Shown piece by piece: positions 28,855 through 64,000 of a stretch of 64,000 nucleotides of DNA. Within the stretch, counting starts at the first letter, position 1. Every line of letters starts with the position of its first letter. Below the pieces are notes generated by a model, which saw only the letters and a list, made by a program, of their open reading frames with translations, was not told where the DNA came from and did not search any database. The position numbers and the translations under genes are program-made. This DNA is from Stomorhina lunata (taxonomy: Eukaryota; Arthropoda; Insecta; Diptera; Rhiniidae), in the NCBI GenBank assembly GCA_933228675.1, contig OW121743.1, positions 61,083,639-61,147,638 on the forward strand, given 5' to 3'.

Positions 28855-28984
28855 AGTTTAAATTACCATCTTAATTACAAATAAGTACTTCTGTAATAAC
28901 TTATTATTTATTCGGATTGTATGTTGTAGTCGTTACAAGGTAACCAGTTATCTGAGTACTTGCCATTACCAAAGTTTTGCTGGG

Positions 28985-35656: not shown

Positions 35657-36299
35657 ATTAAAAAGGTTTATCAAAATTTGGGACATCAAACATTTAATTA
35701 AAAAGTTTTACTGTAGTGTATTGCACTAAGAATCCCAATTTATTACAATTATTTATTATTGTAATAAATAGTTTTTTGATAAAACCAAAAAATGTTGGTG
35801 GGGAAACCTTTCCTCGACGCGTTTCGATGGTTGGTTAGACCATCTCATCAGGAGGATTATCCCTAATTCTAGACAGAGCGAAAACCTCACATTATGTATA
35901 ATTTGAGGGACTGAATAAATACGAATTATTATTATTGTGTCCAACAAATATCAACATAAAGCGCAGATTATCATCCGAACAGAAACACACAAACATTTTT
36001 CAGTTTTATCATTTCTTTATTTCCCACACTTTTGTTGTTGCTTTGTTGGCGACTAAGACAAAAGTGCTATAAAGGGGGTTCAAAGAAAGATTTAAATAAA
36101 CAAAAGTTTATTTTAAAGCTTGGCACATGTGCAGCCGTATATTTATTAAAAAGGTTTATCAAAATTTGGGACATCAAACATTTAATTAAAAAGTTTTACT
36201 GTAGTGTATTGCACTAAGAATCCCAATTTATTACAATTATTTATTATTGTAATAAATAGTTTTTTGATAAAACCAAAAAATGTTGGTGGGGAAACCTTT
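35657..36299 (-). mobile_element. Hammerhead-ribozyme retroelement, copy A (more than one unit)
   Basis: A 155-bp perfect direct repeat (35657-35811 and 36145-36299, offset 488) flanks a unique segment. On the minus strand the order is post-ribozyme segment, spacer, pre-ribozyme segment, hammerhead motif (35856 down to 35811), post-ribozyme segment. The upstream repeat begins (at 36299) 4 nt downstream of the position equivalent to the ribozyme cleavage site. The spacer and pre-ribozyme parts match the element at 62979-63708 ('aactgaaaaatgtttgt', 'gataatct-cgctttt', 'gaggttttcg-tctgtct'). There is no ORF. It fits a retrozyme-like or Penelope-like nonautonomous element. Confidence 0.75.
35811..35856 (-). 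ncRNA. Hammerhead self-cleaving ribozyme motif, type I (copy A)
   Basis: On the minus strand: stem I 5' strand TCCTC, core CTGATGA, stem II GATGG/CCATC with a 9-nt loop, GAAA, short stem III in ACGCGT, then GTC (predicted cleavage after C, between 35816 and 35815), and stem I 3' strand GAGGA. All invariant core positions of the hammerhead consensus (CUGANGA, GAAA, NUH) are met. This copy has the canonical U at the variable position 7. The very short stem III is like the minimal animal hammerheads. Confidence 0.85.
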
Positions 36300-36412
36300 T
36301 CATTTTCTGAAAAAAGTCACATAATTTGTTACACATAATTTAAGCAAAAAGTGTTGCAGTCGTTTAGGCGTAACTTTTTAATTAAATCGCATTTAAATTT
36401 AAGTTCAAGGAA

Positions 36413-38905: not shown

Positions 38906-41626
38906 TTAAACATTAAGGTAAGCTATAATATTTCTTTTAATAAGATAAAGTGGAGATGAATAATCAATAAGTTGATATAAATCATTAAAATTAATAAACA
39001 ACCTTCTTAATGGATCGGCATTTGCATAGTTGGTACTAACGGCTTTAATTTTTATGGGTTGAAAATATCGTGTTGGACGGTTAGGAACTGTGAAGGAGAT
39101 ATTACTTAGCAAAAATTCAGAATTTATATTTCCTTTAATTATGTTGAGTAAAAATGTTACATTTAGCATAATACGTCTACTTTCCAGTGAAGGTAATTTT
39201 ATTAAAGCTAATCTGCTGGCGTAGGAAGGTAAATTTATACATGGATTCCAAGGCAGGCCACGTAGACAGAACAATAAAAATTGCTTTTGAATTGATTCAA
39301 TACGATCAACATAAACATTATAAAATGGGTCCCAAATAACAGAGCCATATTCAAGAATTGGCCTAACCAGGGATGTGAAAAGCAATTTTGTAATGTACGG
39401 GTCAGTGAATTCCTTTGCCCACCGTTTAATAAAAGAAAGAACACCTCTAGCCTTGTTAACCGTCATATTAATATGTGGAGCGAAAGTGAGTTTAGCATCA
39501 AGTATTATGCCCAAGTCTTGAAACGAGTCCACTAATTCCAAAGAATGTTTACCCAAAAAATAAGTCACATCAGCGGCATTATTCCGGTAGAACCTCATAA
39601 GCTTGCATTTGTTTATATTAAGTTCCATTAGATTCAAATCACACCACGTCAGGAAACGATTAAGATCACTTTGAAGGTATATACTATGCGTCGAGTTTTT
39701 GTCGAATGTAAGAAAAATCTTAACATCATCAGCAAACATAAGTATGTTAGAATTTTTTAAAATAGCCGGTAGATCATTCATAAACAAAGAGAAGAGAATT
39801 GGACCAATGTGGCTTCCTTGAGGAACTCCAGAATGTACATTAATGTTTTTCGATAGGCTATTTTTATAGCTAACGTTTTGCCATCTATTATTTAGATAAG
39901 ATCTAAGCCAACAGAGAAACCTGTTGGAAAACCCCATTAATTTAAGCTTTTTTATAAGAAGATCATGGTTAACCTTATCAAAGGCTTTACTAAAATCAGT
40001 ATACACGACATCTGTTTGTTGATTTACAACGAATCCTCGATTTATTACTGTAGTTAAATGTAAGATATTTGTAACAGTTGAACATCCATTTCTGAAACCA
40101 TGCTGATGTTGTGACAATAATGTTGATACATTGTAGGTTAAAGAATTCGTAATCATCTTCTCAAAAAGCTTTGGAATTAAACTAAGTTTTGCGATTCCTC
40201 TATAATTTTTTACATCAGACTTTGCTCCCGATTTAAATAAAGGGATTATGAAAGAAGTTTTGAATTTTTTAGGAAAGTATCCATATTTGATAGATATGTT
40301 GAAAATTATAGATAACGGCATAGATAAACTAGCAGCACAGTTTTTTAATAAGCAGCCAGGTACTCCATCAGGCCCATAGGAAAAAGAAGCATTTAGACGC
40401 TTTAATTGGTTTTCGATTTCAACAGAATCAAGAAGTGGAAGATCAATCAGTTGGTTAGAATTTATTTCATAAGGATACGAATGTGTATTATCATATTTTG
40501 CTTCCGAATATGTTGAAGAAAAAAAATCAGCAAACATGTTGGCAATAGTTTCATCATCATCTGATTCATTATTTAAAAACTTCATAGCAGCCGGAAACTC
40601 ATTAGATCTTCTCTTCGAGTTAACGAAGTTATAAAATGCTTTGGGATTATTTTTAAAATTTTCTTTAATTTTGTTTAAATAGTTATTGTACAGCATAGTA
40701 TTTAAATTATTGTAGTAAGCTCGACAAATAGAGTAATTTGCATAGTCCCATGAGGTGGCAGTTAATTTATATTTTTTAAAAAATTTATTTTTTTTGTTTT
40801 TTAATTTTGAAAGTGATTTGGTGTTCCACGGAGGGCCACTATTGTTAAAGACAGTGCGTTTTGGTATACATATGTCCATTATGGAAAACAGTTTGTTATA
40901 AAATGTATCAACTACAAAATCAATACTAACTGAAGGAGTAGTAGGAATCGAGATTGATAGTAAATTATGCCAATCTATATTCGCAAGATGATTGTTCAGC
41001 ATATTAAAATTCGCTTGTTTAAAGTTATACTTTTTTACATTATCAATTGAACGCGGAGTACGGCCTGGAACAGGAACTGAATAAGTACAGTTGATTTCAA
41101 TTGTCGGATGATACCGATCTTCAGGTGTAGTTAGGGGACAGGAACGAATTATATTGCAATTACTAGGTTCGTTAGTAAATATTAAATCTAGTAATTTATT
41201 ATTGACGTTGAAAACATTATTTATTTGAAAGAGGCATAAATCCATAACATTGTTTAAAAATTCATTAGAGTTTAAAGGTACTATGTTTGGGGTATCAGGT
41301 GGACAATTCCATGAAATTGAGGGTATATTAAAATCACCGAAGATAAATATGTAGTCCACAGAACTCGCTGATTCAACCATATGCTTTATGGCTTCAAAAT
41401 GCCTATCATAAACAGTTTGGTCAGAATAAGGCGGTATATATGAGCAGCTTATAAAAACTTTTTTATTGTTAAGTTTTATTTCTACAGCTATATATTCAAT
41501 ATCATCACCAGAAGAAAATAGTTCGGACGATAAAAGATTGGTGACTGCAATGAGTACACCTCCACCTTTTTTATTTGTTGGTCTATCCATTCTATAAATG
41601 TGGTATCTATTGCACAAGATTTCCAT
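38906..41626 (-). CDS. Retrotransposon ORF2: APE endonuclease and reverse transcriptase
   Basis: 906 residues from the first in-frame Met. The N-terminal part is an apurinic-endonuclease-like domain with GDFN (97-100), LDLIFTN (146-152) and EDRYHP (169-174). RT follows: GPDG (418-421), NYRGIAKLS (474-482), DFSKAFD with the first catalytic Asp (544-550), SGVPQGSHIGP (599-609) and FADD catalytic pair (631-634). A thumb and a C-terminal region come after. The endonuclease clearly starts upstream of this Met: the same frame is open to 41794 and encodes NLIYQNVRGLN and LTETWL, but it contains no ATG, and it overlaps the end of ORF1. Expression may use reinitiation, frameshift or a non-AUG start. 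The role is target nicking and target-primed reverse transcription. No stop breaks the frame. Confidence 0.93.
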   Translation of the reverse strand: MEILCNRYHIYRMDRPTNKKGGGVLIAVTNLLSSELFSSGDDIEYIAVEIKLNNKKVFISCSYIPPYSDQTVYDRHFEAIKHMVESASSVDYIFIFGDFNIPSISWNCPPDTPNIVPLNSNEFLNNVMDLCLFQINNVFNVNNKLLDLIFTNEPSNCNIIRSCPLTTPEDRYHPTIEINCTYSVPVPGRTPRSIDNVKKYNFKQANFNMLNNHLANIDWHNLLSISIPTTPSVSIDFVVDTFYNKLFSIMDICIPKRTVFNNSGPPWNTKSLSKLKNKKNKFFKKYKLTATSWDYANYSICRAYYNNLNTMLYNNYLNKIKENFKNNPKAFYNFVNSKRRSNEFPAAMKFLNNESDDDETIANMFADFFSSTYSEAKYDNTHSYPYEINSNQLIDLPLLDSVEIENQLKRLNASFSYGPDGVPGCLLKNCAASLSMPLSIIFNISIKYGYFPKKFKTSFIIPLFKSGAKSDVKNYRGIAKLSLIPKLFEKMITNSLTYNVSTLLSQHQHGFRNGCSTVTNILHLTTVINRGFVVNQQTDVVYTDFSKAFDKVNHDLLIKKLKLMGFSNRFLCWLRSYLNNRWQNVSYKNSLSKNINVHSGVPQGSHIGPILFSLFMNDLPAILKNSNILMFADDVKIFLTFDKNSTHSIYLQSDLNRFLTWCDLNLMELNINKCKLMRFYRNNAADVTYFLGKHSLELVDSFQDLGIILDAKLTFAPHINMTVNKARGVLSFIKRWAKEFTDPYITKLLFTSLVRPILEYGSVIWDPFYNVYVDRIESIQKQFLLFCLRGLPWNPCINLPSYASRLALIKLPSLESRRIMLNVTFLLNIIKGNINSEFLLSNISFTVPNRPTRYFQPIKIKAVSTNYANADPLRRLFINFNDLYQLIDYSSPLYLIKRNIIAYLNV

Positions 41627-41775
41627 GTTAAAAACATTATCCCTTAGCCATGTTTCAGTTAAAACGATAATATGATAATTAAAATTGTAGCTGTTGGCAA
41701 ATAGTTTAGTTAATTTAGTATTTAGGCCGCGGACATTCTGGTAAATAAGATTAAATTGATCATCGGTATATTTAC

Positions 41776-42783
41776 TTAGTTTTTTGAATTGGTATTATTT
41801 GTAAGGGGAAGGTTAACTACTTTGCTTCTTGTTGAATTGTTATTAATTTTATATTCACGAACAAGTGTATTTGCTGGCCAAAAATCGGGATCAATTATTT
41901 TATTAAACAGTTCAAACGGAACGGTTAGTTTGAATGATGTAATAGTTCTTGGTTCAGAATATTCAAATTTTTTTATAAAAATATCCGGAACATACTTCAA
42001 CTTATATTTTACGTAATTGTTGATATCATCAACGGTTGTCTCGAAAGCAAAACGAGAAATGAAAATAGACTTTCTTGGGGGAATAACAGTAAGTTGAGTC
42101 GGATTATAATAGGCTTGTATAGGAGCAGATGAGTTAAATGCAAAATTAGCTTGTGTTGTAGCAATAGATGAAGTAGATGGAGTTGACGTAGATTGCGAAC
42201 CATCAGAATTAACATTATTGATTGGAGGATTTGGTGGGAGATTATCCTTTGAGTTAGGAGCAGGAGCAATAGAATTTGCAGCAAGGGAATGAATTCGGAC
42301 GTATTTACTGGCTGATTGTTGAACTTGGGGCAAAGGAGTAATTGGTGTTGTTTGTTGATTGCTTTGTGAGCTTTGCAAGATTGGCAATTGAAGAACGGAC
42401 GAGTATGACGAGTTTTCAGATGATATGGTATTAGTCAAATTGCTCGACGAATTACCGGTGTTTAGATCAGTTTTTTTCCTTTTGGGAGAACAGGGTGCCT
42501 TTTCAAATAATTCTTTATATTTTAAAAACTTTTTAGTAAGACAGTTCAGATCGTTGATTATATCATCTAATCCAAGACTTGTATTTTTAAAAAATGAAAA
42601 GAACTCGACATCGAAAACAATACACTTTTTACAACACCAACGTAAACCTTTATCTTCGTGCAGGTTGTCGGCAGTGCGAGGGGCTAAGTCAACGCATTTA
42701 GCATGGTAAACGTCATGACAAAGCCAACAGGCAACATTTGGTTCATCAGATTTAACTCTGCATTTCGGTTTGCAGCAACTCAT
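41776..42783 (-). CDS. Retrotransposon ORF1 protein with PHD-like zinc finger
   Basis: 335 residues. The N-terminus has a cysteine/histidine array C4, C8, C19-x2-C22, H27-x2-C30, C51-x2-C54 preceded by W49. This is the pattern of a PHD finger, a domain known in ORF1 of CR1-clade elements. A Ser/Thr/Asn/Gln-rich, probably disordered middle (about 110-225) follows. A C-terminal domain (about 235-320) has KSIFISRFAFETTVDDINNY and FWPANTLVREYK, typical of insect CR1-like ORF1 proteins and probably RNA-binding. It ends at a stop overlapped by the ORF2 frame. The presumed role is RNA binding and RNP formation for retrotransposition. Confidence 0.85.
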   Translation of the reverse strand: MSCCKPKCRVKSDEPNVACWLCHDVYHAKCVDLAPRTADNLHEDKGLRWCCKKCIVFDVEFFSFFKNTSLGLDDIINDLNCLTKKFLKYKELFEKAPCSPKRKKTDLNTGNSSSNLTNTISSENSSYSSVLQLPILQSSQSNQQTTPITPLPQVQQSASKYVRIHSLAANSIAPAPNSKDNLPPNPPINNVNSDGSQSTSTPSTSSIATTQANFAFNSSAPIQAYYNPTQLTVIPPRKSIFISRFAFETTVDDINNYVKYKLKYVPDIFIKKFEYSEPRTITSFKLTVPFELFNKIIDPDFWPANTLVREYKINNNSTRSKVVNLPLTNNTNSKN

Positions 42784-43472
42784 GTTGGAAAAAAAATATT
42801 GTTTTAGAAGTGAAAATAAATAAAAATTGTTTGTTGGGTAATGATGAATCTTAACAGATTAGGTTGTTATGTCCAGTAAAATAAGTGGTGCTGATCTTAA
42901 ATACAGGAAATAATGGATGAAAAATTAATTTTGAAAATTGTTGCCTTATTCAATTTGATTGGAGTGTAAATTAATTAAATGATTTAAATTAACGGCAAAA
43001 ATTGTTTACTATTAACAAGCAGTGATTATTAAACTGTAAAAAATTTTCACAGTGTTTTTAAAACTACGACAGCTGATAGAATTGAGCGGGCTATGATTTT
43101 TGTTGTTATTATATTTATTTTTATTCTGTTTTGAAATATTATGCTCTTATTTGTTTATTGTTGAGGCTATTATTGTTGTTGTTTTTAAGTTCGTATGAAA
43201 AAAAAAAAATTTTTTTTTTTTATTTTGTACATAAAACAACAAATTGTTTGTGTATTTAATTATTTAGATTTTTTCTATTAAACGATGCAGTAAGTGTTTA
43301 GTTTTTATTATCACCAAAATGTTTATCTAAAAATAGATCGACTTTTTACAATATTATTATTTATAACTTTTAAAAACACTTAAAATTTCACGATAATTGA
43401 GGAACGATTTTGAATGCTAGTTTGATTTAATAAAAGAAGACATCTATTTGAAGACATCTATTTGATTTTATT

Positions 43473-44442
43473 TTATAGAAAATTTTTTTCTCAAAAATTT
43501 GTCTATAGAACATTTTTTATCAAAAATTTTTCTATGGAAAATTTTTCATCAAAAATTTTTCTATAGAAAATTTTTTATCAAAAATTTTTGTATAGAAAAT
43601 TTTTTTATCAAAAATGTTTCTATAGAAAAATTTTTTTTATCAAAATTATTTCTATAGAAAATTTTTTTATCAAAAATTTTTTATAGAAATTTTTTTTAAC
43701 AAAAATTTTTCTATAGAAAATTTTTTTATCAAAAATTTGTCTACAGAACATTTTTTACCAAAAATTTTACTATGGAAAATTTTTCATCAAAAATTTTTCT
43801 ATAGAAAATTTTTTATCAAAAATTTTTGTATAGAAAATTTTTTTATCAAAAATTTTTCAATAAAAAATTTTTTTATCAAACATTTTTCTATAGCAAATTT
43901 TTTTGTCAAAAATGTATCTATATAAAATTTTTTTATCAAAAATGTTTCTATAGAAATTATTTTTATCAAAAATTTTTTTATAGAAAATTTTTTTATCAAA
44001 AATTTGTCTATAGAACATTTTTTATCAAAAATTTTTCTATAGAAAATTTGTTATCAAAAATTTTTGTATGGAAAATTTTTCATCGAAAATGTTTCTATAG
44101 AAAATTTGTTATCAAAAATTTTTGTATAGAAAATTTTTTTATCAAAAATGTTTCTATATAAAATTTTTTTTATCAGAAATGTTTCTATAGAAATTTTTTT
44201 ATCAAAAATTTTTTTATAGAAAATTTTTTTATCAAAAATTTTTCTATAGAACATTTTTTATCAAAAATTTTTCTATTGAAAATTTTTCTATAGAAAATTT
44301 TTTATCAAAAATTTTTGTATAGAAAATTTTTTTATCAAAAATTTTTGTATGGAAAATTTTTCTATAGAAAATTTGTTATCAAAAATTTTTGTATAGAAAA
44401 TTTTTTTATCAAAAATTTTTCTATAGAAAATTTTTTTACAAA
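43473..44442. repeat. TTTCTATAGAAA minisatellite, right part of the interrupted array
   Basis: Continues the array split by the retrotransposon: CTATAGAAAATTTTTTTATC plus AAAAATTT units of about 30 bp, with variants GTATAG, CTATGG and CTATAT. Frames of 60-110 codons in it (for example 43826-44161) are repeated Phe/Tyr/Lys words from the repeat, not genes. Confidence 0.93.
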
Positions 44443-44598
44443 AAGAAGTGTATTTGCATTTGATCCCAAACCTGTTACATTTATTTATTAATGTAACAGA
44501 TCAATTTATTGATAAAAAGCCAAAAAATGTTTGCGGAGAAACCAAATTCCTCGACGCGTTTCGATGGTTGGTTAAGCCATCTCTTCAGGAGGATTATT
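44443..44598 (-). mobile_element. Hammerhead retroelement fragment, copy B
   Basis: On the minus strand it holds the hammerhead motif and the ~105-bp segment after it, including the CTGTTACATT/AATGTAACAG hairpin and 'tttgggatcaaatgcaaata'. The region before the ribozyme is cut off after 'ataatcc' and replaced by array sequence. Both sides are minisatellite. Confidence 0.75.
44548..44593 (-). ncRNA. Hammerhead self-cleaving ribozyme motif, type I (copy B)
   Basis: Minus strand: TCCTC, CTGAAGA, GATGG-loop-CCATC, GAAA, CGCGTC, GAGGA. The core is intact, with A at the variable position 7. Predicted cleavage is after the C at 44553. Identical in sequence to copies at 49252, 63090 and 63554. Confidence 0.85.
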
Positions 44599-46998: not shown

Positions 46999-47587
46999 AA
47001 GAAACATGCAACATTTGCTACATAATGGTAGCTGCAGCAAGTAGCAGCAGCAGTGAGTGTCATTTAAACTTGAGCAAAACATTTCTCATTTGACAGCAAT
47101 TAGTTTATTAGTTTTTGGTTTTAATTCCTCTTTTTTGTTCAGTGTTTCAGTATTTTTGCAGAATTTCTTTAAAAATAAAGAAAATGTTATGATAAAGCTT
47201 AATACAATAGTTTAAACATACAAATTCTTTTGTACTTAAGAATATGGCTTGAAGTGTGAGTAATAGAGGTTTGCACTGAGATATTTAAAAGCACTTTCAT
47301 ATATTCAAAGTGTCACATAGTGATTTGAACCAAAAAAAAAAAAAAGTGGTAATAAATCTGTAACTGTAAGTCTGATTACATCAGTATGTATGAGAGAATT
47401 TTTAAGGAGGACCTAAGCTTTCTAAATTTTTAATTTTTGCACAGGGTGAATCATTTGGTGTCCAAGTAGACCACCTCAGCTCTTTTAATTATTATCCAAT
47501 ATGGTAGATTTTTTTGAATTTGGAATGAGCTTGAAGAAACAAATAAAAAACATATGTATTTTACTTCAATAACTTTTATGGGTTTTA
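46999..47587. repeat. Spacer with a dispersed repeat (family G) at its right end
   Basis: No gene seen in 46999-47440. From about 47460 to 47587, 'aatttggaatgagcttg-agaaac' and 'taacttttatgggttttaag' match 50255-50340 ('aatttggaatgaaacttgcagaaac', 'tatcttttatgggttgtaag'). There is therefore a second dispersed repeat family next to family F. Confidence 0.45.
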
Positions 47588-48480
47588 AGCAAGAGTAGGC
47601 AGCCCACACCACCAGTAGCCGATCAATATCGTAAATTACACGATCATTAATAAAACTCGTGAAAATGAGTATTAAAATTATTCAGATGGAATTTGGAATT
47701 TTTATCCGACCGAAAATGGAATACAACTCTCATGTATGGGCCGGTGCTTCAAAGTCTATTTTGGAGCTTCTCGACCGTGTACAAGAGAGGGCGAAGGTGC
47801 TTATCGGTGACAGTAGGGTAGCCAACTCTATTGCCTCATTGGAGCATCGTCGTAAAGTGGGTTGCGTTTCACTGTTCTATCGCTACTACAACGGCATGTG
47901 CTCAAACGAAATTAGGGATCTTGTTCCAGAAACCCGTACATTTCTTCGTAGCACACGCAACTCAACAAGGGCTCATCCCTTTGTAGTCGACGCACTATAG
48001 AGAAAACTCGTTTTTTAGCCGTACAGCACGAATGTGGAATAAACTTCCTGCATCAGTCTTCCCCTCAAATTATGATATCCAAAGGTTCAAATCGAATATA
48101 CACAAACACTACTCCCTCTATCCTCCTTCCCACAACCTTTTTTCCTAGTTCCATCACAATGCATATGCATACGTAGGGGTCATCCCCTGAGTGTTGGTCC
48201 AATACAAAAAAAAAAAAAAAAAAAAATCAAAATCCAATTTACAGCAACAAAATACATGGCTAGAGAGAATAATGAAATATAATCTTGAACATTGTTGCCA
48301 AGACACTATTATTTTTCTAATCATTGGTAATATTTTTCAAAACATTGGGAATATTTTTGTAAATACTGGAATATTTTTCAAAACAGAAATAAATTCTAAT
48401 ATTAAACAATTTTAGATTTTTATATATTTTTTAGATATTTTCAATCCAAACTTTTTTTTATAGAAACATTATTAATAAAA
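47588..48480 (+). repeat. Dispersed repeat family F, copy 2 (interrupted)
   Basis: The left part, 47588-47697, and the right part, 48228-48480, match copies at 45185-45585 (minus) and 60877-61225. Between them lies a retrotransposon fragment with a poly(A) tail. Compared with copy 1, about 75 bp of the family sequence is missing at the insertion point. The right part runs into TTTCTATAGAAA minisatellite. Confidence 0.7.
47698..48227 (+). pseudogene. 5'-truncated non-LTR retrotransposon, RT C-terminus with poly(A)
   Basis: The frame starting near 47698 encodes IRPKMEYNSHVWAGASKSI, then LLDRVQERAKVLIGDSRV, LEHRRKVGCVSLFYRYYNG and FLRSTRNSTRAHPFVVDAL, and stops at 48000. The continuation RTARMWNKLPASVFPSNYDI is in another frame, so there is a frameshift. 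The 3' end is 'gttggtccaatac' followed by about 22 A. It is the same family as 9199-9850 but better preserved. It is a dead-on-arrival LINE insertion in a family F repeat. The clade is unassigned. Confidence 0.85.
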
Positions 48481-49082
48481 ATATTTTTTTTTTAATTTTT
48501 CGACAAAATTAGATTTTATAGAAAATTATTCAATAAAAATAAAAAATATTTTTATATCAAATATTTTTATTCCAAATATTTTTCTATAGAAAAATTTTTG
48601 ATGAAAAAATAGAAAAATGTTTGATTAAAATTTTCCATAGAAAAATGTTTGAAAAACAAATTTTCCATAGAAAATGTTGTAAGAAAACTTTCTATAATAA
48701 AATTTTTGATAAAAAAAATTTCTATAGAAAAATTTTTGTAAGAAAATTTTCTATAGAAAAATTTTTGATAAAAAATTTTCTATACAAAAATTTTTGATAA
48801 ACAAATTTTCTATAGAAAATTTTTTGATAAAAAAATTTTCTATACAAAAATTTTTGATAAAAAAATTTTCTATACAAAAATTTTTGATAAACAAATTTTC
48901 TATAGAAAAATTTTTGATAAAAAAAAAAATTTTATAAAAAAATTTTCTATAGAAAAATTTTTAATAAAAAAATTTTTATCAAAAAAATGTTTATCAAAAA
49001 TTTTTCTAAAAATAACAAAATAAAAAAAAAAAATTTTTTATCAAAAAAATGTTTATCAAAAATTTTTCTAAAAATAACAAAA
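48480..49082. repeat. Minisatellite, CTATAGAAAAATTTTTGATA type
   Basis: Units of TTTTCTATAGAAAAATTTTT then GATAAAAAAA, about 30 bp, the reverse-complement form of the 43473-45060 array. The right end has a duplicated ~55-bp block ('atttttatcaaaaaaatg'). Confidence 0.9.
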
Positions 49083-49371
49083 TAGTCGGTATGTAAATAT
49101 TATTCAAAAAGAAGAGTATTCGCATTTAATCCCTGACTGTTCAGTCGATGATCTACGCTTTTACTTATGGTTTATGAACATAATTCTGAAAAGTTGTGTT
49201 TGTAAATATAGTAATAATGCGAGATTTTCGATCTATCTAAATTGGGGATAATCCTCCTGAAGAGATGGCTTAACCAACCATCGAAACGCGTCGAGGACTT
49301 TGGTTTCTCCGCAAACATTTTTTGGCTTTTTATCAATAAATTGGTCTGTTACATTAATAAATAAATGTCTT
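49083..49371 (+). mobile_element. Hammerhead retroelement fragment, copy C, with inverted 3' piece
   Basis: 49135-49371 matches the pre-ribozyme, ribozyme and part of the post-ribozyme segments of 62979-63245; the post segment is cut inside the ATGTAACAG hairpin arm. Immediately left, 49083-49133 is the reverse complement of 63214-63265 ('gggatcaaatgcaaatacac' region), i.e. the 3' portion in opposite orientation. This suggests rearrangement or a head-to-head insertion. Confidence 0.7.
49252..49297 (+). ncRNA. Hammerhead self-cleaving ribozyme motif, type I (copy C)
   Basis: Plus strand: TCCTC, CTGAAGA, GATGG-loop-CCATC, GAAA, CGCGTC, GAGGA. Core positions are intact. Predicted cleavage lies between 49292 and 49293. 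Confidence 0.85.
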
Positions 49372-49375
49372 TTTG

Positions 49376-49545
49376 AAAAAAATTTTTCTATAGAAAATTT
49401 TGTTACCAAAAATTTTTCTCTAGAAAAATTTTTTATCAAATTTTTCTCTAGAAAAATTTTTTATCAAAAAATTTTCTATAGAAAAACTTTTGATAAAAAA
49501 TTTTCTAAGATTTTGATAAAAAAAATTTCTTCGGAAAATTTTTTG
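49376..49545. repeat. Short minisatellite block
   Basis: A few units of CTCTAGAAAAATTTTTTATC and CTATAGAAAAACTTTTGATA type directly right of hammerhead copy C. Confidence 0.75.
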
Positions 49546-49697
49546 ATAAAAATATTTAAAAAAAATGGAGTAGAAAACTTTTTTCTTTTTAAAACGTTAG
49601 AGCTACACATTGAAAAAATACCTATTTTAGTTAAAAGTATTATAAAACGGCAACTCTGCCGACTACTTTTTTGTTCTGTTCTCTTTGCGGCGACCCG
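49544..49697 (+). repeat. Dispersed repeat, copy 2 (first copy 5966-6112)
   Basis: Shares 'gataaaaatatttaaaaaaa', 'gagtagaaaactttttt', 'ttgaaaaaatacct', 'cggcaactctgcc' and 'ttttttgttctgttctctt' with 5966-6112. Noncoding. Confidence 0.6.
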
Positions 49698-50994: not shown

Positions 50995-53900
50995 CAATAT
51001 TTTTCATTAGAAATGTCTTTCTATCGTCAACTTTTCTATGGAAATGTCTTCCTATCGTCAACTTTTCTATAGAAATGTCTTCCTGTCGTCAACTTTTCTA
51101 TAGAAATGTCTTCCTGTCGTCAACTTTTCTATAGAAATGTCTTCCTGTCGTCAACTTTTCTATAGAAATGTCTTCCTGTCGTAAACTTTTCTATAAAAAT
51201 GTCTTCCTATCGTCAACTTTTCTATAGAAATGTCTTCCTGTAGTCAACTTTTCTATAGAAATGTCTTCCTGTCCTCAACTTTTCTATAGAAATGTCTTCC
51301 TGTCGTCAACTTTTCTATAGAAATGTCTTCCAGTCCTCAACTTTTCTATAGAAATGTCTTCCTGTCGTCAACTTTTCTATAGAAATGTCTTCCTGTCGTC
51401 AACTTTTCTATAGAAATGTCTTCCTGTCGTCAACTTTTCTATAGAAATGTCTTCCTGTCGTCAACTTTTCTATAGAAATGTCTTCCTGTCGTCAACTTTT
51501 CTATAGAAATGTCTTCCTGTCGTCAACTTTTCTATAGAAATGTCTTCCTGTCGTCAACTTTTCTATATAAATGTCTTCCTGTCGTCAACTTTTCTATAGA
51601 AATGTCTTCCTGTCGTCAACTTTTCTATAGAAATGTCTTCCTGTCGTCAACTTTTCTATAGAAATGTCTTCCTGTCGTCAACTTTTCTATAGAAATGTCT
51701 TCCTGTCGTCAACTTTTCTATAGAAATGTCTTCCTGTCGTCAACTTTTCTATAGAAATGTCTTCCTGTCGTCAACTTTTCTATAGAAATGTCTTCCTGTC
51801 GTCAACTTTTCTATAGAAATGTCTTCCTGTCGTCAACTTTTCTATAGAAATGTCTTCCTGTCGTCAACTTTTCTATAGAAATGTCTTCCTGTCGTCAACT
51901 TTTCTATAGAAATGTCTTCCTGTCGTCAACTTTTCTATAGAAATGTCTTCCTGTCGTCAACTTTTCTATAGAAATGTCTTCCTGTCGTCAACTTTTCTAT
52001 AGAAATGTCTTCCTGTCGTCAACTTTTCTATAGAAATGTCTTCCTGTCGTCAACTTTTCTATAGAAATGTCTTCCTGTCGTCAACTTTTCTATAGAAATG
52101 TCTTCCTGTCGTCAACTTTTCTATAGAAATGTCTTCCTGTCGTCAACTTTTCTATAGAAATGTCTTCCTGTCGTCAACTTTTCTATAGAAATGTCTTCCT
52201 GTCGTCAACTTTTCTATAGAAATGTCTTCCTGTCGTCAACTTTTCTATAGAAATGTCTTCCTGTCGTCAACTTTTCTATAGAAATGTCTTCCTGTCGTCA
52301 ACTTTTCTATAGAAATGTCTTCCTGTCGTCAACTTTTCTATAGAAATGTCTTCCTGTCGTCAACTTTTCTATAGAAATGTCTTCCTGTCGTCAACTTTTC
52401 TATAGAAATGTCTTCCTGTCGTCAACTTTTCTATAGAAATGTCTTCCTGTCGTCAACATTTCTATAGAAATGTCTTCCTGTCGTCAACTTTTCTATAGAA
52501 ATGTCTTCCTGTCGTCAACTTTTCTATAGAAATGTCTTCCTGTCGTCAACTTTTCTATAGAAATGTCTTCCTGTCGTAAACTTTTCTATAGAACTGTCTT
52601 CCTGTCCTCAACTTTTCTATAGAAATGTCTTCCAGTCCTCAACTTTTCTATAGAAATGTCTTCCTGTCGTCAACTTTTCTATAGAAATGTCTTCCTGTCG
52701 TCAACTTTTCTATAGAAATGTCTTCCTGTCGTCAACTTTTCTATAGAAATGTCTTCCTGTCGTAAACTTTTCTATAGAACTGTCTTCCTGTCCTCAACTT
52801 TTCTATAGAAATGTCTTCCTGTCGTCAACTTTTCTATAGAAATGTCTTCCTGTCGTCAACTTTTCTATAGAAATGTCTTCCTGTCGTCAACTTTTCTATA
52901 GAAATGTCTTCCTGTCGTCAACTTTTCTATAGAAATGTCTTCCTGTCGTCAACTTTTCTATAGAAATGTCTTCCTGTCGTCAACTTTTCTATAGAAATGT
53001 CTTCCTGTCGTCAACTTTTCTATAGAAATGTCTTCCTGTCGTCAACTTTTCTATAGAAATGTCTTCCTGTCGTCAACTTTTCTATAGAAATGTCTTCCTG
53101 TCGTCAACTTTTCTATAGAAATGTCTTCCTGTCGTCAACTTTTCTATAGAAATGTCTTCCTGTCGTCAACTTTTCTATAGAAATGTCTTCCTGTCGTAAA
53201 CTTTTCTATAGAACTGTCTTCCTGTCCTCAACTTTTCTATAGAAATGTCTTCCTGTCCTCAACTTTTCTATAGAAATGTCTTCCTGTCGTCAACTTTTCT
53301 ATAGAAATGTCTTCCTGTCGTCAACTTTTCTATAGAAATGTCTTCCTGTCGTCAACTTTTCTATAGAAATGTCTTCCTGTCGTCAACTTTTCTATAGAAA
53401 TGTCTTCCTGTCGTCAACTTTTCTATAGAAATGTCTTCCTGTCGTCAACTTTTCTATAGAAATGTCTTCCTGTCGTCAACTTTTCTATAGAAATGCCTTC
53501 CTGTCGTCAACTTTTCTATAGAAATGTCTTCCTGTCGTCAACTTTTCTATATAAATGTCTTCCTGTCGTCAACTTTTCTATAGAAATGTCTTCCTGTCGT
53601 CAACTTTTCTATAGAAATGTCTTCCTGTCGTCAACTTTTCTATAGAAATGTCTTCCTGTCGTCAACTTTTCTATAGAAATGTCTTCCTGTCGTCAACTTT
53701 TCTATAGAAATGTCTTCCTGTCGTCAACTTTTCTATAGAAATGTCTTCCTGTCGTCAACTTTTCTATAGAAATGTCTTCCTGTCGTCAACTTTTCTATAG
53801 AAATGTCTTCCTGTCGTCAACTTTTCTATAGAAATGTCTTCCTGTCGTCAACTTTTCTATAGAAATGTCTTCCTGTCGTCAACTTTTCTATAGAAATGTC

Positions 53901-54415
53901 TTCCTGTCGTAAACTTTTCTATAGAACTGTCTTCCTGTCCTCAACTTTTCTATAGAAATGTCTTCCTGTCGTCAACTTTTCTATAGAAATGTCTTCCAGT
54001 CCTCAACTTTTCTATAGAAATGTCTTCCTGTCGTCAACTTTTCTATAGAAATGTCTTCCTATCGTCAACTTTTCTATAGAAATGTCTTCCTATCGTCAAC
54101 TTTTCTATAGAAATGTCTTCCTATCGTCAACTTTTCTATAGAAATGTCTTCCTATCGTCAACTTTTCTATAGAAATGTCTTCCTATCGTCAACTTTTCTA
54201 TAGAAATGTCTTCCTATCGTCAACTTTTCTATAGAAATGTCTTCCTATCGTCAAGTTTTCTATAGAAATGTCTTCCTATCGTCAGCTTTTCTATAGAAAT
54301 GTCTTCCTATCGTCAACTTTTCTATAGAAATGTCTTTCTGTCGTCAACTTTTCTATAGAAATGTCTTCCTATCGTCAACTTTTCTATAGAAATGTCTTCC
54401 TGTCGTCAATTTTTT
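50995..54415. repeat. 31-bp minisatellite array, GTCTTCCTGTCGTCAAC type
   Basis: About 110 units of GTCTTCCTGTCGTCAAC followed by TTTTCTATAGAAAT (31 bp), extremely homogeneous. TTTCTATAGAAA is a 12-bp palindrome. Edge units carry CCTATCG instead of CCTGTCG (about 54060-54400 and the first units). A marker pair of variants (GTAAAC, then GAACTG) recurs at 52576, 52762, 53196 and 53909. These spacings are 186, 434 and 713 bp, all exact multiples of 31. The array is GC-richer than the others. Confidence 0.98.
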
Positions 54416-55495
54416 TGTGAAAATGCCCTTTTTTTATATACACCAAAATTTTAAGTGTAAAAACGGGTCAATTAGGTTTCCGTTTTTTTAATTTTTTAAA
54501 TTGTGTTACATAAACAATAAAATAAACTTCATAACTGCAAAAAAAATATTTATGTACCTTGTACAGTTTTTTTTTTTAATTTAAAGTCAAATTTTGCAAA
54601 AATAATCTTTTTATTTTCTTTTGTAAAAAGAACTCAACTGAATCATTTGCAGCAGACCTCTTATCTTAAATATTTGCTGTTGTGCTGCAGTGGCACAACA
54701 CTTCTTTGCTGTTTGGTGAAAGTGTTATTTATGAATATTGCAACATTATGACAACGTATTGTATGATGAGGGTGTGCCATTCACTCATTCGTTCATTCAC
54801 TCATTCTTCATTTCTTTATTCATTCGTTTAAAACATTTACACATTTTTTTTTTATTTATAAAAATATTCTTTCCTTTTCATTTTTCTAGTCATTGTGGAA
54901 TTATGAAGAAGCACTCAGTGTTAAACTGTTTATGATTTATGAGTGTCATAATAAAAGGTGGGTTATTATATAGACGACAACGATATTGCTAAATGTTGCT
55001 GGTGCTTTTGTTGCTTTTAAATATTATTTTTATTTATGTTCTTGTTAAACGCATTGAACGTCTAGGAAAATGTATGACAAACAAAAATGAAAATAAAATT
55101 AATGAAAAGAAAAACGAAAAACACACACACATAACATTTGATTTGAATTAATTTTAATTGGCCAATACTTCCGCTTTAGCATTTTTATGGTTAATTAAAA
55201 TTCATTATGGAAAATATAAATGTTTATGACTTTAAGCTATAAAAGGGGTGAAAAACGTAATAATATTTATTGTTCTTATGGGGTTTTAGAGTTTATTTTG
55301 GAAAAATAATTTATAGCAGTTTGTTATACTTTTTTCACCATTAGAAAAAAATGAAAGTCCCATTACTAAAAGCACCATAGAGGTATATCAAAAACTTTAA
55401 ATTTGTTAAAATTTATTATCAAAAACAAAAAGTTTTCAAAATATCTGTATAAGAATCATTGGACAAGAAATATGTATATATCGAGATAATCACAA
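54416..55495. other. Spacer between related arrays; no gene seen
   Basis: AT-rich sequence with 'cattcactcattcgttcattc' simple repeat near 54780. The 65-codon frame at 54738-54935 covers this simple repeat and has no domain. Confidence 0.4.
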
Positions 55496-55496
55496 A

Positions 55497-57335
55497 TTCA
55501 ACTTCATATCGTCAACTTTTCTATAGAAAAGTCTTCCTATCGTCAACTTTTCTATAGAAAAGTCTTCCTATCGTCAACTTTTCTATAGAAAAGTCTTCCT
55601 ATCGTCAACTTTTCTATAGAAAAGTCTTCCTATCGTCAACTTTTTTATAGAAAAGTCTTCCTATCGTCAACTTTTCTATAGAAAAGTCTTCCTATCGTCA
55701 ACTTTTCTATAAAAAAGTCTTCCTATCGTCAACTTTTCTATGAAAAAGTCTTCCTATCGTCAACTTTTATATAGCAAAGTCTTCCTATCGTCAACTTTTC
55801 TATAGAAAAGTCTTCCTATCGTCAACTTTTCTATAGAAAAGTCTTCCTATCGTCAACTTTTCTATAGAAAAGTCTTCCTATCGTCAACTTTTCTATAAAA
55901 AGTCTTCCTATCGTCAACTTTTCTATAGAAGTGTCTTCCTATCCTCAACTTTTCTATAGAAAAGTCTTCCTATCGTCAACTTTTCTATAGAAAAGTCTTC
56001 CTATCGTCAACTTTTCTATAGAAAAGTCTTCCTATCGTCAACTTTTCTATAGAAAAGGCTTCCTATCGTCAACTTTTCTATAGAAAAGTCTTCCTATCGT
56101 CAACTTTTCTATAGAAAAGTCTTCCTATCGTCAACTTTTCTATAGAAAAGTCTTCCTATCGTCAACTTTTCTATAGAAAAGTCTTCCTATCGTCAACTTT
56201 TCTATAGAAAAGTCTTCCTATCGTCAACTTTTTTATAGAAAAGTCTTCCTATCGTCAACTTTTCGATAGAAAAGTCTTCCTTTCGTCAACTTTTCTATAG
56301 AAAAGTCTTCCTATCGTCAACTTTTCTATAGAAAAGTCTTCCCATCGTCAACTTTTCTATAGAAAAGTCTTCGTATCGTCAACTTTTCTATAGAAATGTC
56401 TTCCTATCTTCAACTTTTCTATAGAAATGTCTTCCTATCGTCAACTTTTCTATAGAAAAGTCTTCCTATCGTCAACTTTTCTATAGAAAAGTCTTCCTAT
56501 CGTCAACTTTTCTATAGAAGTGTCTTCCTATCCTCAACTTTTCTATAGAAATGTCTTCCTATCTTCAACTTTTCTACACAAATGTCTTGCTATCGTCAAC
56601 TTTTCTTTAGAAATGTCTTCCTATCGTCAACTTTTTTATAGAAATGTCTTTCTATCGTCAACTTTTCTATAGAAGTGTCTTCCTATCCTCAACTTTTCTA
56701 TAGAAATGTCTTCCTATCTTCAACTTTTCTATAGAAATGTCTTCCTATCGTCAACTTTTCTATAGAAATGTCTTCCTATCGTCAACTTTTCTATATAAGT
56801 GTCTTCCTATCGTCATTTTTTCTATAGAAATGTCTTCCTATCGTCAACTTTTCTATATAAGTGTCTTCCTATCGTCAACTTTTCTATATAAGTGTCTTCC
56901 TATCGTCAACTTTTCTATAGAAATGTCTTCCTATCCTCAACTTTTCTATAGAAATGTCTTCCTATCTTCAACTTTTCTATAGAAATGTCTTCCTATCGTC
57001 AACTTTTCTTTAGAAATGTCTTCCTATCGTCAACTTTTTTATAGAAATGTCTTCCTATCGTCAACTTTTCTATAGAAGTGTCTTCCTATCCTCAACTTTT
57101 CTATAGAAATGTCTTCCTATCTTCAACTTTTCTTTAGAAATGTCTTCTTATCGTCAACTTTTCTATAGAAATGTCTACCTATCATTAACTTTTCTATGGA
57201 AATGTCTTCCTATCGTCAACTTTTTTATTGAAATGTCTTCCTATCGTCAACTTTTCTATGGAAATGTCTTCCTATCGTCAACTTTTTTTATAGAAATGTC
57301 TTCTTATCATCAACTTTTCTTCCTATCGTCAATAT
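55497..57335. repeat. 31-bp minisatellite array, GTCTTCCTATCGTCAAC type
   Basis: About 59 units of GTCTTCCTATCGTCAAC then TTTTCTATAGAAAA. This is the sister array of 50995-54415 (CCTATCG and AAAA instead of CCTGTCG and AAAT). From about 56400 the units switch to GAAATG or AAGTG ends and become less uniform. Open frames over it (56737-56982, 57140-57358) are repeated 'SYRQLFYRNVFL' words and not genes. Confidence 0.97.
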
Positions 57336-58839: not shown

Positions 58840-59148
58840 AAAATTTCCCTTGAAGGGAAATTTTTGTTTATTGACATTTTTTAAAAGTTTTTTAGAAATA
58901 CTTATAAAACATCAAAAACTAAGATAAAATCTCATAAAACTTTAAGATTTTCCCTAGTAACAAAAAATTTCCCTTTTAGGGAAATTTGAATTAAAAGAGA
59001 TTTCTTTAAGAAATTGATTTTTTTGTATTAAAGGATAAATAGTGATAACAAATTTAATACAATTTTTAAAATTTCACTCACTAAATAAAATTTCCCTTGA
59101 AGGGAAATTTTTGTTTTATAACATTTTTAATTTTTTTTTTTAGAAATA
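58840..59148. repeat. Tandem ~240-bp repeat with TTTCCCTT/AAGGGAAA palindromes, left part
   Basis: The palindromic words AAATTTCCCTTGAAGGGAAATTT (near 58850 and 59090) and TTTCCCTTTTAGGGAAA (near 58967) alternate, with shared linkers ('gtattaaaggataaatagtg', 'tttttagaaatac'). The second unit is split by the TIR element and resumes at 60290, where CTTGAAGGGAAATTT and 'gtattaaaggataaatggt' reappear. Confidence 0.65.
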
Positions 59149-59400
59149 CCCAGTAAAACTTTTCATTACCAAATAATGAGTTAAACAGTTAAACTATTGA
59201 ACACGAACTACTTACTCATTCGCTGTTTAAGTCATTACATTAACATGGGGATGTCATTGGAGGCAAGTACTTACCAATTGCAGGGAAGTAATGACTTGGG
59301 TAAGCAATTTGAAAGCAACAACAACAACAACAGCAATAACTTTTTTGTTGTTGTTTTATTAAAAACATATATTTTGAAACGAAATACAAAATTTTTTTTA

Positions 59401-59471
59401 TGATCCCATGGGGGCCTCGAATCCAGACCCTCCGACTGCTAGGCAGAGACTCTTCCACTGAGCTACTTCAT
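59401..59471 (-). pseudogene. tRNA-like segment inside the TIR element, copy 2
   Basis: The minus strand has GTAGCTCAGTGGAAGAG, the same anticodon-like arm as at 27928-27999, and a B box altered by one inserted base and a substitution (GGATTCGAGGCC). It is more decayed than copy 1. Confidence 0.6.
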
Positions 59472-60126
59472 ATGTTGAAAACTTAGCGGCTTATAATTAA
59501 TATAAACAATTTTTATTTTTAGATCCAAAATCATGTGAAAATAACTTTGTTTTTCCCTGCTTTTTTTTTTTTTTTTGCTTTGTTGTAATTTTTGGAAAAA
59601 TATTTTTATACAATTTTTTGTTATTATTTTAAAACTTTTTTAAAATTATTTTAAAACTTAAACAATTTAAATCTTCTTTTTTGTATAAGTTTTTACATAA
59701 TATTGACTCTTACTTACTTAAATGTTACAACCTGTTAAGGTCAAAGTCCGAGCATATTTTAGAATTCCATGGATTTCGATCTTGTGCGAATATTCTCCAA
59801 TTTTATAGGCCAAGCTTTGAAAAATGTTCCTCTACTTGGTCTTTCTATCGAAGTTTCGGACATCCTCCTCTAACATCAGGTAGTGGGACATTTCAATTCT
59901 AATTTTATCCTCTTCATTGTATTTTTTTTTTTTCAAGAGAGGGTTACTAGCCCGTAATCCTAACCCATTTTTATCGATCTTATGGGACAACTCTCGGAAC
60001 ATGTTAACTCTTAACGTGAGTTAATTTAAAAAATTTTTTTTATAGAAGATAATATTTAAGTTCTTAAAATTCAAAAATCATTTAAAAAGACTCTTTTAAT
60101 AAAAAAAAAAAAACTAAAAAAAATTG

Positions 60127-60159
60127 TTGCCCTTGGTGGGATTTGAACCGGGGCCATTC
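60127..60159 (-). pseudogene. tRNA 3'-half-like segment inside the TIR element, copy 2
   Basis: Identical in form to 28823-28854: GGTTCAAATCCCACC preceded by GGCCCC and followed by AAGGGCAA on the minus strand. Confidence 0.45.
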
Positions 60160-60289
60160 AGTTTAAATTACCATCTTAATTACAAATAAGTACTTCTGTA
60201 ATAACTTATTATTTATTCGGATGGTATCTTGTAGTCGTTACAAGGTAACCAGTTATCAGAGTACTTGCAATTACCAAAGTTTTGCTGGG

Positions 60290-60857: not shown

Positions 60858-60876
60858 GATGAACGCGTTATAATCA

Positions 60877-61225
60877 GTAGTAGACAGCCCATACCACCAG
60901 AAGCCGATGACTTTGTTTAATTTTCCTAAAAACCACGATTATAAATAAAAATTCGTGAAAATGAGTATTAAAATCATTCGGACAACAACAAAATAGACAA
61001 GAAACAAATCAAAATCCAATTTATAGCAACAAAACACATGGTTCGAGAGAACAGAAAAATATAATCTCGAACATTGTTGCCACGATACTAATACTTTTGT
61101 AAACATTGGGAATATTTTTGTAAATATTAGGAATTCTTTTCAAAACAGAAATAAATTGTAATATTAAACAATTTTATATTTTATGTTCTTTAGATATTTT
61201 CGATCCAAAATTTTTGAATAGAAAT
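60877..61225 (+). repeat. Dispersed repeat family F, copy 3 (without LINE insertion)
   Basis: Uninterrupted counterpart of 47588-48480: 'gtagacagcccataccacc', 'gtgaaaatgagtattaaaat', 'gaaacaaatcaaaatccaat', 'gttcgagagaaca', 'cattgttgccacgatact', 'acattgggaatatttttgta' and 'tagatattttcgatcc'. It is followed by minisatellite. Confidence 0.7.
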
Positions 61226-61229
61226 ACTT

Positions 61230-62978
61230 TTATTTGGAAAATTGTTCGATAAAAACTATATTTTATAGAAAAAATTTTCGATAAAAATATTTTTATATCA
61301 AAAAATTTTCAAATCTTCTAAAGAAAAATTTTTGATAAAAAAATTTTCTATAGAAAAATTTTTGATAAAAACATTTTCTATAGAAAAATTTTTGATAAAA
61401 AAATTTTCTATACAAAATTTTTTCAAAAATTTTAAATAGAAAATTTTGAATAAAAAATTTTCTATAGAAAAATTTTTATGAAAAAAAAAATATAGAAAAA
61501 TTAATGATAGCAAAATTTTCTATCGAAAAATTTTTGATAAAATAATTTTCTATAGAAAAGTTTTTGATAAAAAAATTTTCTATTTTTGATAAAAAATTTT
61601 TTATAGAAAATTTTCTGATAAAAAATTTTCCATAGAATAGTTTTTGACAAAAAAATTTTCTTTAGAAAAATTTTTGAAAAAAAATTTTCTATAGAAAAGT
61701 TTTTGGCAAAAAAATTTTCTACAAAAAAAAATTTCTTTAGAAAAATTATCTTTAAAAAAATTTTTAATAAAAAAAATTTTTATAGAAATATTTTCAAAAA
61801 TTTTAAATAGAAAATTTTGAATAAAAAATTTTCTATAGAAAAATTTTTATGAAAAAAAAAATATAGAAAAATTAATGATAGCAAAATTTTCTATCGAAAA
61901 ATTTTTGATAAAATAATTTTCTATAGAAAAGTTTTTGATAAAAAAATTTTCTATTTTTGATAAAAAATTTTTTATAGAAAATTTTCTGATAAAAAATTTT
62001 CCATAGAATAGTTTTTGACAAAAAAATTTTCTTTAGAAAAATTTTTGAAAAAAAATTTTCTATAGAAAAGTTTTTGGCAAAAAAATTTTCTACAAAAAAA
62101 ATTTTCTTTAGAAAAATTATCTTTAGAAAAATTTTTAATAAAAAAAATTTTTATAGAAATATTTTTGAGGATAAAATTTTTTATAGAAAAATTTTTGAGG
62201 ATAAAATTTTTATAGAAAAATATTTGTAACAGAAATTTTCTATAGAAAAATTTTTGATAAAAAATTTTTATAAAAAAATTTTTGATAAAAAAATTTTGTA
62301 ACATTAAAAAGAAATATAGAAAAATTTTTGACAAAAAATTTTTCTATAGAAAAATTTTAAATAAAGAAATTTCCTATAGAAAAATTTTTGATAAAAAAAT
62401 TTGCCATAGAAAAATTTTTGAGGATAATATTTTATATAATATTTTTGATAAAAAAAAATTTTATAGAAAATTCAAAAAATTTTGTACAGAAAAATTTTTG
62501 TCAAAAAATTTTCCACAGAAAACTTTTGACAAAAAAAATATAGAAAAATTTTTGATAACAAAATTTTCTATACAAAAATTTTTAATAAAAAAAATTTTCT
62601 GTAGAAAAATTTTTGATAAAGAAATTTTCTATACAAAGGTTTTTGATAAAAAAATTTTCTATAAAAAAGTTTTTGATAAAGAAATTTTTTATAGAAAAAT
62701 TTTTGATAAAAAAAATTTCTATAGAAAAATTTTTGTTAAAAAAAATTTTCTAACATTTTTATTAAAAAATTTTCCATTGAAAATTTTTGATAAAAAAATT
62801 TTCTATAGAAAAATTTTGAGGATAATATTTTTATATAACACTTTTGATAAAAAAATTTAAAAATTCAAATTATTTTCTACAGAAAAATTTTTGTTAAAAA
62901 ATTTTCTACAGAAAACTTTTGATAAAAAAAAAAATATAGAAAAATTGTTGATACCAAAATTTTTTATAGAAAAATTTT
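61230..62978. repeat. Minisatellite array, CTATAGAAAAATTTTTGATA type, with 371-bp duplication
   Basis: Diverse ~29-30-bp units of TTTTCTATAGAAAAATTTTT then GATAAAAAA. A compound segment starting TTTAAATAGAAAATTTTGAA occurs at 61431 and 61802 (371 bp apart), with the same rare variants (AATTAATGATAGC, GAATAGTTTTTGAC, GTTTTTGGC). The open frames over it (62282-62860 plus, 61972-62334 minus) encode repeated Phe/Lys/Ile words and are not genes. Confidence 0.93.
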
Positions 62979-63089
62979 TCAGTCGATAATCTACGCTTTT
63001 AATTTTGGTTTATGAACATAATTCTTAATAGTTATGTTTGTAAATTTAGTAGTAATGCGAGGTTTTCGATCTGTCTAAATTGGGGATAA

Positions 63090-63135
63090 TCCTCCTGAAG
63101 AGATGGCTTAACCAACCATCGAAACGCGTCGAGGA
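63090..63135 (+). ncRNA. Hammerhead self-cleaving ribozyme motif, type I (copy D)
   Basis: TCCTC, CTGAAGA, GATGG-loop-CCATC, GAAA, CGCGTC, GAGGA. Intact core and stems. Predicted cleavage is after 63130. Confidence 0.87.
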
Positions 63136-63553
63136 ATTTGGTTTCTCCACAAACATTTTTTTGGCTTTTTATCAATAAATTGGTCTGTTACATTAATAAA
63201 TAAATGTAACAGATTTGGGATCAAATGCAAATACACTTCTTTTTGAATAATATTTACATCCCGACTAATTTGTTATTTTTTGATAAAACTGCATGCATTC
63301 ATCTTATTTTTAAAATAAACTTGTTTATTTTAAAACATCTTACCCCCCCCTTCTTCACAGCATTCTGCATATAGTAGCCGACGGCTACAGCAAGAATGTG
63401 GGAAGTGAAGGTAGATGAAAACTGAAAAATGTTTGTTTTTGTTCAGTCGATAATCTACGCTTTTAATTTTGGTTTATGAACATAATTCTTAATAGTTATG
63501 TTTGTAAATTTAGTAATAATGCGAGGATTTCGATCTGTCTAAATTGGGGATAA

Positions 63554-63599
63554 TCCTCCTGAAGAGATGGCTTAACCAACCATCGAAACGCGTCGAGGA
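63554..63599 (+). ncRNA. Hammerhead self-cleaving ribozyme motif, type I (copy E)
   Basis: Same 46-nt sequence as copy D. Predicted cleavage is after 63594. With copy D it would release a 464-nt RNA (63131-63594). Confidence 0.87.
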
Positions 63600-63708
63600 A
63601 TTTGGTTTCTTCGCAAACATTTTTTGGCTTTTTATCAATAAATTGGTCTGTTACATTAATAAAAAAATGTAACAGATTTGGGATCAAATGCAAATACACT
63701 TCTTTTTG

Positions 63709-64000
63709 AAAAAAAAAAATTTCTATAGAAAAATTTTTGATAAAAAAATTTTCTATAGAAAAATTTTTGATAAAAAAATTTTCTATAGAAAAATTTTTGA
63801 TAAAAAAATTTTTAATAGAAAAATTTTTGATAAAAAAATTTTCAATAGAAAAATTTTTGATAAAAAAATTTTCTATAGAAAAATTTTTGATAAAAAAATT
63901 TTCTATAGAAAAATTTTTGATAAATTTTCTATAGAAAAATTTTTGATAAAAAAAGTAGAAAAGTTTTTGATAAAGAAATTTTCTATAGAAAAATTTTTGA
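63709..64000. repeat. Minisatellite array, CTATAGAAAAATTTTTGATA type, running off the window
   Basis: Homogeneous ~30-bp units of TTTTCTATAGAAAAATTTTT plus GATAAAAAAA starting right after the hammerhead element's 3' end. It continues beyond the window. Confidence 0.95.

Follow-up and report, generated by a model that had tools for sequence, protein, structure and literature searches.

The 64,000-nt stretch of Stomorhina lunata DNA analysed here (the window) contains at 63 kb a real feature that is most likely a retrozyme, and one of an already known kind. With a probability of about 0.78 we read it as a fly retroelement that belongs to the metazoan retrozyme type, is non-autonomous and is predicted to be active. 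This reading was adopted because the ribozymes, their spacing, the direct repeats, a related lineage and the conservation of the ribozyme are seen in the sequence; cleavage, ligation, the circle and a helper we infer from published retrozymes. A transcript through the locus would carry two type I hammerheads. By analogy with the published elements, cleavage would free a 464-nt RNA able to circularise by ligation, and a reverse transcriptase acting in trans (Penelope-like or LINE) would copy this RNA into new, partly repeated insertions. The parts of the element are the following:

62979 to 63250, plus strand: first direct repeat of the 63-kb element, about 271 bp, with TCAGTCG at its start and CTTCTTTTTGAA at its end; pairs with 63443 to 63713
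63090 to 63135, plus strand: hammerhead ribozyme 1, with full core and 5-bp stems I and II; predicted cleavage after 63130; Rfam RF00163, 23.1 bits
63131 to 63594, plus strand: 464-nt unit from predicted cleavage site to predicted cleavage site; 31.7% GC; circular fold z -6.2 relative to 100 shuffles
63251 to 63442, plus strand: 192-bp middle with a long hairpin, between the two repeats
63443 to 63713, plus strand: second direct repeat, which meets a 30-bp minisatellite at TTTTTGA
63554 to 63599, plus strand: hammerhead ribozyme 2, letter-identical to ribozyme 1; predicted cleavage after 63594

The initial annotation had proposed two identical 46-nt hammerheads with cleavage sites 464 nt apart, and both were confirmed at 63090-63135 and 63554-63599, with predicted cleavage after 63130 and 63594. 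Each 46-mer comprises stem I (TCCTC/GAGGA), CTGAAGA, stem II (GATGG/CCATC), GAAA and CGCGTC. Both strands of the window were scanned with a pattern consisting of CTGANGA, 3 bp of stem II, GAAA, TH and 5 bp of stem I. The scan yielded five hammerheads, all of one family; the chance expectation is 0.11 matches per window (11 matches in 100 first-order Markov windows). All five have the CUGANGA/GAAA/NUH core, 5-bp stems I and II and a single A-U pair in stem III. Exact-pattern searches of viral contigs and prokaryote genomes gave no match, nor did phage records, as expected for a fly repeat.

When the whole window was searched with Rfam, no family reached its gathering score, and a search of 861 nt at E<=10 returned six weak matches with no hammerhead among them. 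In searches of 121 nt, Hammerhead_1 (RF00163) was the best family both at 63089-63136 (23.1 bits, E 0.00084) and at 35857-35810 on the minus strand (22.0 bits, E 0.0019). These two copies, the ones tried of the five, lie under the RF00163 gathering score of 34, so that the covariance check suggested in the initial annotation formally failed, though Hammerhead_1 was the top match. On the same bases as the 63-kb ribozyme there is also a weak twister-P3 match (15.8 bits, E 0.73, gathering score 39.9).

The 63-kb element (62979-63713) is 735 bp long, which corresponds to 1.58 units of 464 nt. The tandem dimer originally described stands as far as the direct repeats and their 464-nt spacing are concerned, but the arrangement is not a full dimer: repeats of about 271 bp enclose the 192-bp middle. 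The two repeats differ by five substitutions and one indel; the raw comparison gave seven mismatches, two of them in flanking bases. The longest stop-free frame in the 735 bp has 71 codons, no open frame exceeds this length, and no frame for a reverse transcriptase with GIY-YIG was found in the element. This anatomy, together with the conserved ribozyme and the relatives found elsewhere in the window, backs the earlier description of a non-coding, retrozyme-like arrangement with hammerheads in direct repeats and in need of a helper. Within the 64-kb window the 464-nt period is confined to the 63-kb locus; a diverged lineage (lineage B) has a period of about 488 nt. T runs of equal or greater length occur inside the unit, and for this reason the T5 run at the 3′ ends is not taken to indicate Pol III.

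The family is present at four loci in the 64 kb, three of which lie within one carrier repeat. Besides the 63-kb element, which belongs to lineage A, they comprise:

49138 to 49368, plus strand: second lineage-A locus, a single repeat that has lost an inner stretch and follows an inverted piece at 49021-49141; 94% identical to the 63-kb unit
49252 to 49297, plus strand: hammerhead ribozyme of the 49-kb locus
44428 to 44597, minus strand: third lineage-A locus, truncated on its 5′ side; 96% identical over 171 columns
44548 to 44593, minus strand: hammerhead ribozyme of the 44-kb locus
35654 to 36300, minus strand: lineage-B element of about 1.3 units, the unit being about 488 nt long; AATGAAA, present at 36298-36304 as well as 35653-35659, is a candidate 7-bp target duplication
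35811 to 35856, minus strand: lineage-B hammerhead ribozyme; Rfam RF00163, 22.0 bits, E 0.0019

The units of lineages A and B are 65% identical over 495 alignment columns, gaps being counted as differences. In the best-conserved window of this alignment, the 46 columns up to the cleavage site, 43 of 46 positions agree; the median window has 29 of 46. The three differences between the lineage-B 46-mer and that of lineage A fall on N7, a free core position, and on two bases of loop II, and the defining core bases are unchanged in all five ribozymes. This is the pattern that selection on a ribozyme leaves, and as such is evidence, at the sequence level, for selection.

Lineage B starts about 4-7 nt past the cleavage position, for which the chance is about 7/488 (1.4%) for one end. 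Both this start and the candidate AATGAAA duplication are single cases and are taken as leads. The 63-kb copy sits in minisatellite, where target duplications cannot be read. Inversions at the 5′ end are seen with target-primed reverse transcription; such an event, or a later rearrangement, would account for the piece that lies inverted before the 49-kb copy. A 62-bp tandem repeat at 48966-49141 adjoins the 49-kb copy and overlaps the inverted retrozyme piece at 49021-49141, as though retrozyme sequence had been incorporated into the minisatellite.

The repeat that carries lineage A is larger than the retrozyme:

60868 to 64000, plus strand: larger composite carrier repeat, which runs past the right edge of the window; further copies from 45584 downward on the minus strand and from 47582 on the plus strand (47582-49583)

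The carrier copies have the order head, 30-bp minisatellite, retrozyme, more minisatellite, and the carrier also holds a 21-bp minisatellite. Their heads start at 60868, at 45584 (running downward) and at 47582, the last being interrupted by a piece of another repeat; heads and minisatellite parts are 71-78% identical between copies. All three lineage-A loci lie inside carrier copies and meet the minisatellite at TTTTTGA. Judged from the sequence, they may descend from one old insertion that was copied with the carrier, or from repeated insertions at the same phrase. We abandoned the view of the 49-kb and 44-kb copies as independent insertions, the carrier repeat being common to the lineage-A loci. 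Spread of lineage A by retrotransposition is consequently putative: its loci share the carrier, and the 63-kb locus is nested in this larger minisatellite-rich repeat with three copies in the window. Lineage B lies outside the carrier.

The type of the ribozyme differs from the one first assigned. A minimal type I hammerhead of the Penelope type had been proposed, which is contradicted by an internal loop in stem I, by the AACC/GGUU complement and by the palindromic stem III. A second helix (GGGGA/TCTCC in the 63-kb element, GGGA/TCCC in lineage B) closes the internal loop of stem I; it is lost in the truncated 44-kb copy, and 80% of its cells are paired. In all five ribozymes AACC of loop II is complementary to GGTT (GGUU) of the internal loop, and in the four lineage-A ribozymes the complement extends to AACCAA/TTGGTT. 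Stem III consists of one A-U pair that closes a CGCG loop; the loop is palindromic, so that two strands could form a 6-bp ACGCGU/ACGCGU duplex. When two minimal ribozymes were co-folded, a double hammerhead was predicted with -28.9 kcal/mol, compared with 2 x -10.6 kcal/mol for the single forms.

The axolotl hammerhead HHR_Amex1 also combines a one-pair stem III with a palindromic tetraloop; according to PMC7229834, its monomeric construct reached 6% cleavage in one hour, and the dimeric form was much more efficient. PMC7761336 states that most invertebrate ones cleave as monomers. The fly ribozyme looks as though it would work best as a pair of hammerheads sharing the 6-bp ACGCGU/ACGCGU stem III, an arrangement we propose because its own stem III amounts to one A-U pair with the palindromic loop. 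The shared stem would be open to a tandem transcript and closed to a circle of one unit. It is conceivable that the ribozyme acts as an obligate-dimer switch: tandem transcripts would pair and cut, a circle with one hammerhead could not and would be stable without a protein block, and the repeat may carry its own initiator (TCAGTCG) and make its own tandem transcript. The dimer model is built on the amphibian analogy and on the co-fold of short strands, and we regard the switch as tentative and rather doubtful because the folding described below speaks against an easy, spontaneous dimer.

Both circles folded below 100 shuffles each, with z -6.2 for lineage A and z -7.1 for lineage B (the latter sequence used without the first few bases of the unit). 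The joint fold of A and B was below all 150 column shuffles (z -5.9). Seven base pairs are compensated between the lineages, a number reached by 60 of the 150 column shuffles, so that covariation gives no proof of the fold. No ribozyme pair is changed on both sides, and covariation thus speaks neither for nor against the ribozyme.

The probability of the hammerhead fold in the circles was 0.0016 (A) and 0.0031 (B). In the linear 735-nt RNA the two single hammerheads reached 1.7e-4 and 2.7e-5, against 1.7e-10 for the dimeric form; these are secondary-structure probabilities, which ignore tertiary contacts and folding during transcription. In an 85-nt context the best fold was more stable than the hammerhead fold by 2.0 kcal/mol in A and 2.8 kcal/mol in B. 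Within this model the values speak against an easy, spontaneous dimer. A block of the ribozyme by GGUUUC/GAAAC, which appeared in the joint fold, was rejected: in the circle ensembles the bases pair with a probability of 0.005 in A and, with a slip of 2 bases, at most 0.058 in B.

The same folding results bear on the possibility that the element is a relic, i.e. a former retrozyme that now spreads as DNA, a passenger of the minisatellite-rich composite repeat, and has ceased to be transcribed and cut. Folding of the full-length RNA is unfavourable to the ribozyme, two of the three lineage-A loci are truncated or rearranged, and all three lie in copies of one larger repeat with the same TTTTTGA junction. 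A passenger of this kind is nevertheless unlikely: all five ribozyme cores are intact despite divergence elsewhere, the 63-kb copy has two identical ribozymes, and lineage B is found outside the carrier. It appears very improbable that an ordinary repeat shows the hammerhead pattern by chance. The chance expectation for the loose pattern is 0.11 per window, repeats would multiply a single chance match, and the Rfam score is under threshold, but the motif is the best-conserved stretch between lineages that are 65% alike, and all five copies have the loop complement, an intact GUC and stems I and II of 5 bp.

The element could also derive from a Penelope-like element that has shrunk and become non-autonomous, has retained the hammerhead in its terminal repeats and is mobilised without a circle. 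Penelope-like elements have type I hammerheads in pseudo-LTRs, partial tandems and AT-rich targets, as described in PMC11167929 and PMC7761336. PMC7761336, however, characterises their hammerheads as minimal, with helix III or the loop-loop contacts missing, whereas the 63-kb ribozyme has the stem I loop complement and the palindromic stem III. Moreover, of the 13 frames of the window scanned with Pfam, none outside the LINE at 38906-42858 showed a reverse transcriptase or GIY-YIG domain; ten of these gave a single sub-threshold match and no mobile-element domain. We therefore consider a Penelope-like origin quite unlikely and prefer the retrozyme reading.

As a retrozyme, the 63-kb element fits the metazoan non-LTR group on its type I core, repeat layout, low GC and lack of a coding frame, as far as sequence features go. 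Members of this group with type I hammerheads are described from Acropora, Mytilus and Ambystoma (Cervera and de la Pena 2020, PMC7229834, in part). Shared features are short non-coding repeats with one type I hammerhead per unit, low GC, a strongly self-paired predicted circle and the presence of several copies, although three of the four loci here share one carrier repeat. In contrast to the RNAs of about 170-400 nt and the repeats of 150-450 bp given in PMC7229834, the units here have 464 and 488 nt, and the 63-kb element has 1.58 units with direct repeats that are LTR-like in layout. Its stem III is of the amphibian style, whereas most invertebrate retrozymes are said in PMC7761336 to cleave as monomers. 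Target duplications in metazoan non-LTR retrozymes, where present, are longer than 4 bp; the lineage-B candidate has 7 bp.

The hammerheads of amphibian satellites (newt satellite 2 and axolotl HHR_Amex1), compared by description, share the one-pair stem III with palindromic tetraloop, the loop contacts and the repeated units, but the amphibian units measure 330-350 bp. Penelope-like elements and Terminons are alike in the type I hammerhead in repeated ends, the partial tandem layout and the AT-rich targets; the 63-kb element differs from them by a non-minimal hammerhead and by having no reverse transcriptase or endonuclease. In plant LTR retrozymes (PMC4918200), too, direct repeats with a hammerhead flank a short non-coding middle, and a circle is predicted; their hammerhead is of type III, with PBS/PPT and a GC content over 55% according to PMC7229834, whereas the ribozyme here is of type I and the unit has 31.7% GC. 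Hammerheads reported from other fly genomes (D. pseudoobscura, Musca, Rhagoletis, Hermetia; PMC7936874, in part) are of type III and not of type I.

No report of a type I retrozyme in a fly was found in the open-access literature. We make no claim to a first report because insects are already named, in general terms, as hosts of such repeats in PMC7229834, and because the literature search was an open-access one. Retrozymes make abundant animal circular RNAs, and what mobilises them and what stops the circle from cutting itself are open questions of the field. A fly element with an amphibian-style, dimer-type ribozyme would open both to insect genetics. The dimer switch, if true, would be an insect answer to the question, raised in PMC7229834, of what silences hammerheads in animal circles.

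A possible candidate for the helper is the LINE at 38906-42858 on the minus strand. It has two long frames of 962 and 360 codons (stop to stop). The 962-codon frame carries RVT_1 and endonuclease domains (Pfam); Pfam gave no match in the 360-codon frame that precedes it. The LINE protein is up to 65% identical to database proteins, and the named relatives among the best 120 of 369 are from the flies Haematobia irritans, Bactrocera tryoni, Culicoides brevitarsis and Lucilia cuprina. A further frame of 121 codons (47635-48000, plus strand) lies within a piece that recurs at 9179-9684 (83%); by eye it is like the end of a LINE protein, and Pfam found no match for it.

The first repeat of the 63-kb element opens with TCAGTCG at 62979, which fits the arthropod initiator TCAGTY. 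The position of the match exactly at the end of the element is unusual because TCAGTY has 47 occurrences on both strands of the whole window; being a single case spotted post hoc, it is treated as a lead. Such a feature is reported for a plant retrozyme repeat in the abstract of PMC9695139.

The window as a whole has 25.2% GC and is rich in minisatellites of about 30 bp. AT-rich arrays with 29-32-bp repeats occupy 13061-17488, 18175-21739, 23330-25632, 32078-34495 and 51001-57320; these long arrays are related in sequence to each other and to the arrays that flank the retrozyme. An assembly gap of 200 N (27280-27479) lies inside minisatellite. No tRNA was detected by ARAGORN anywhere in the window. 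Two copies of a segment of about 1.2 kb (27652-28984 and 59124-60289) are 95-96% identical; the segment contains at about 60138 the sequence GGGATTTGAACC, which resembles a tRNA T-arm/B box on the minus strand.
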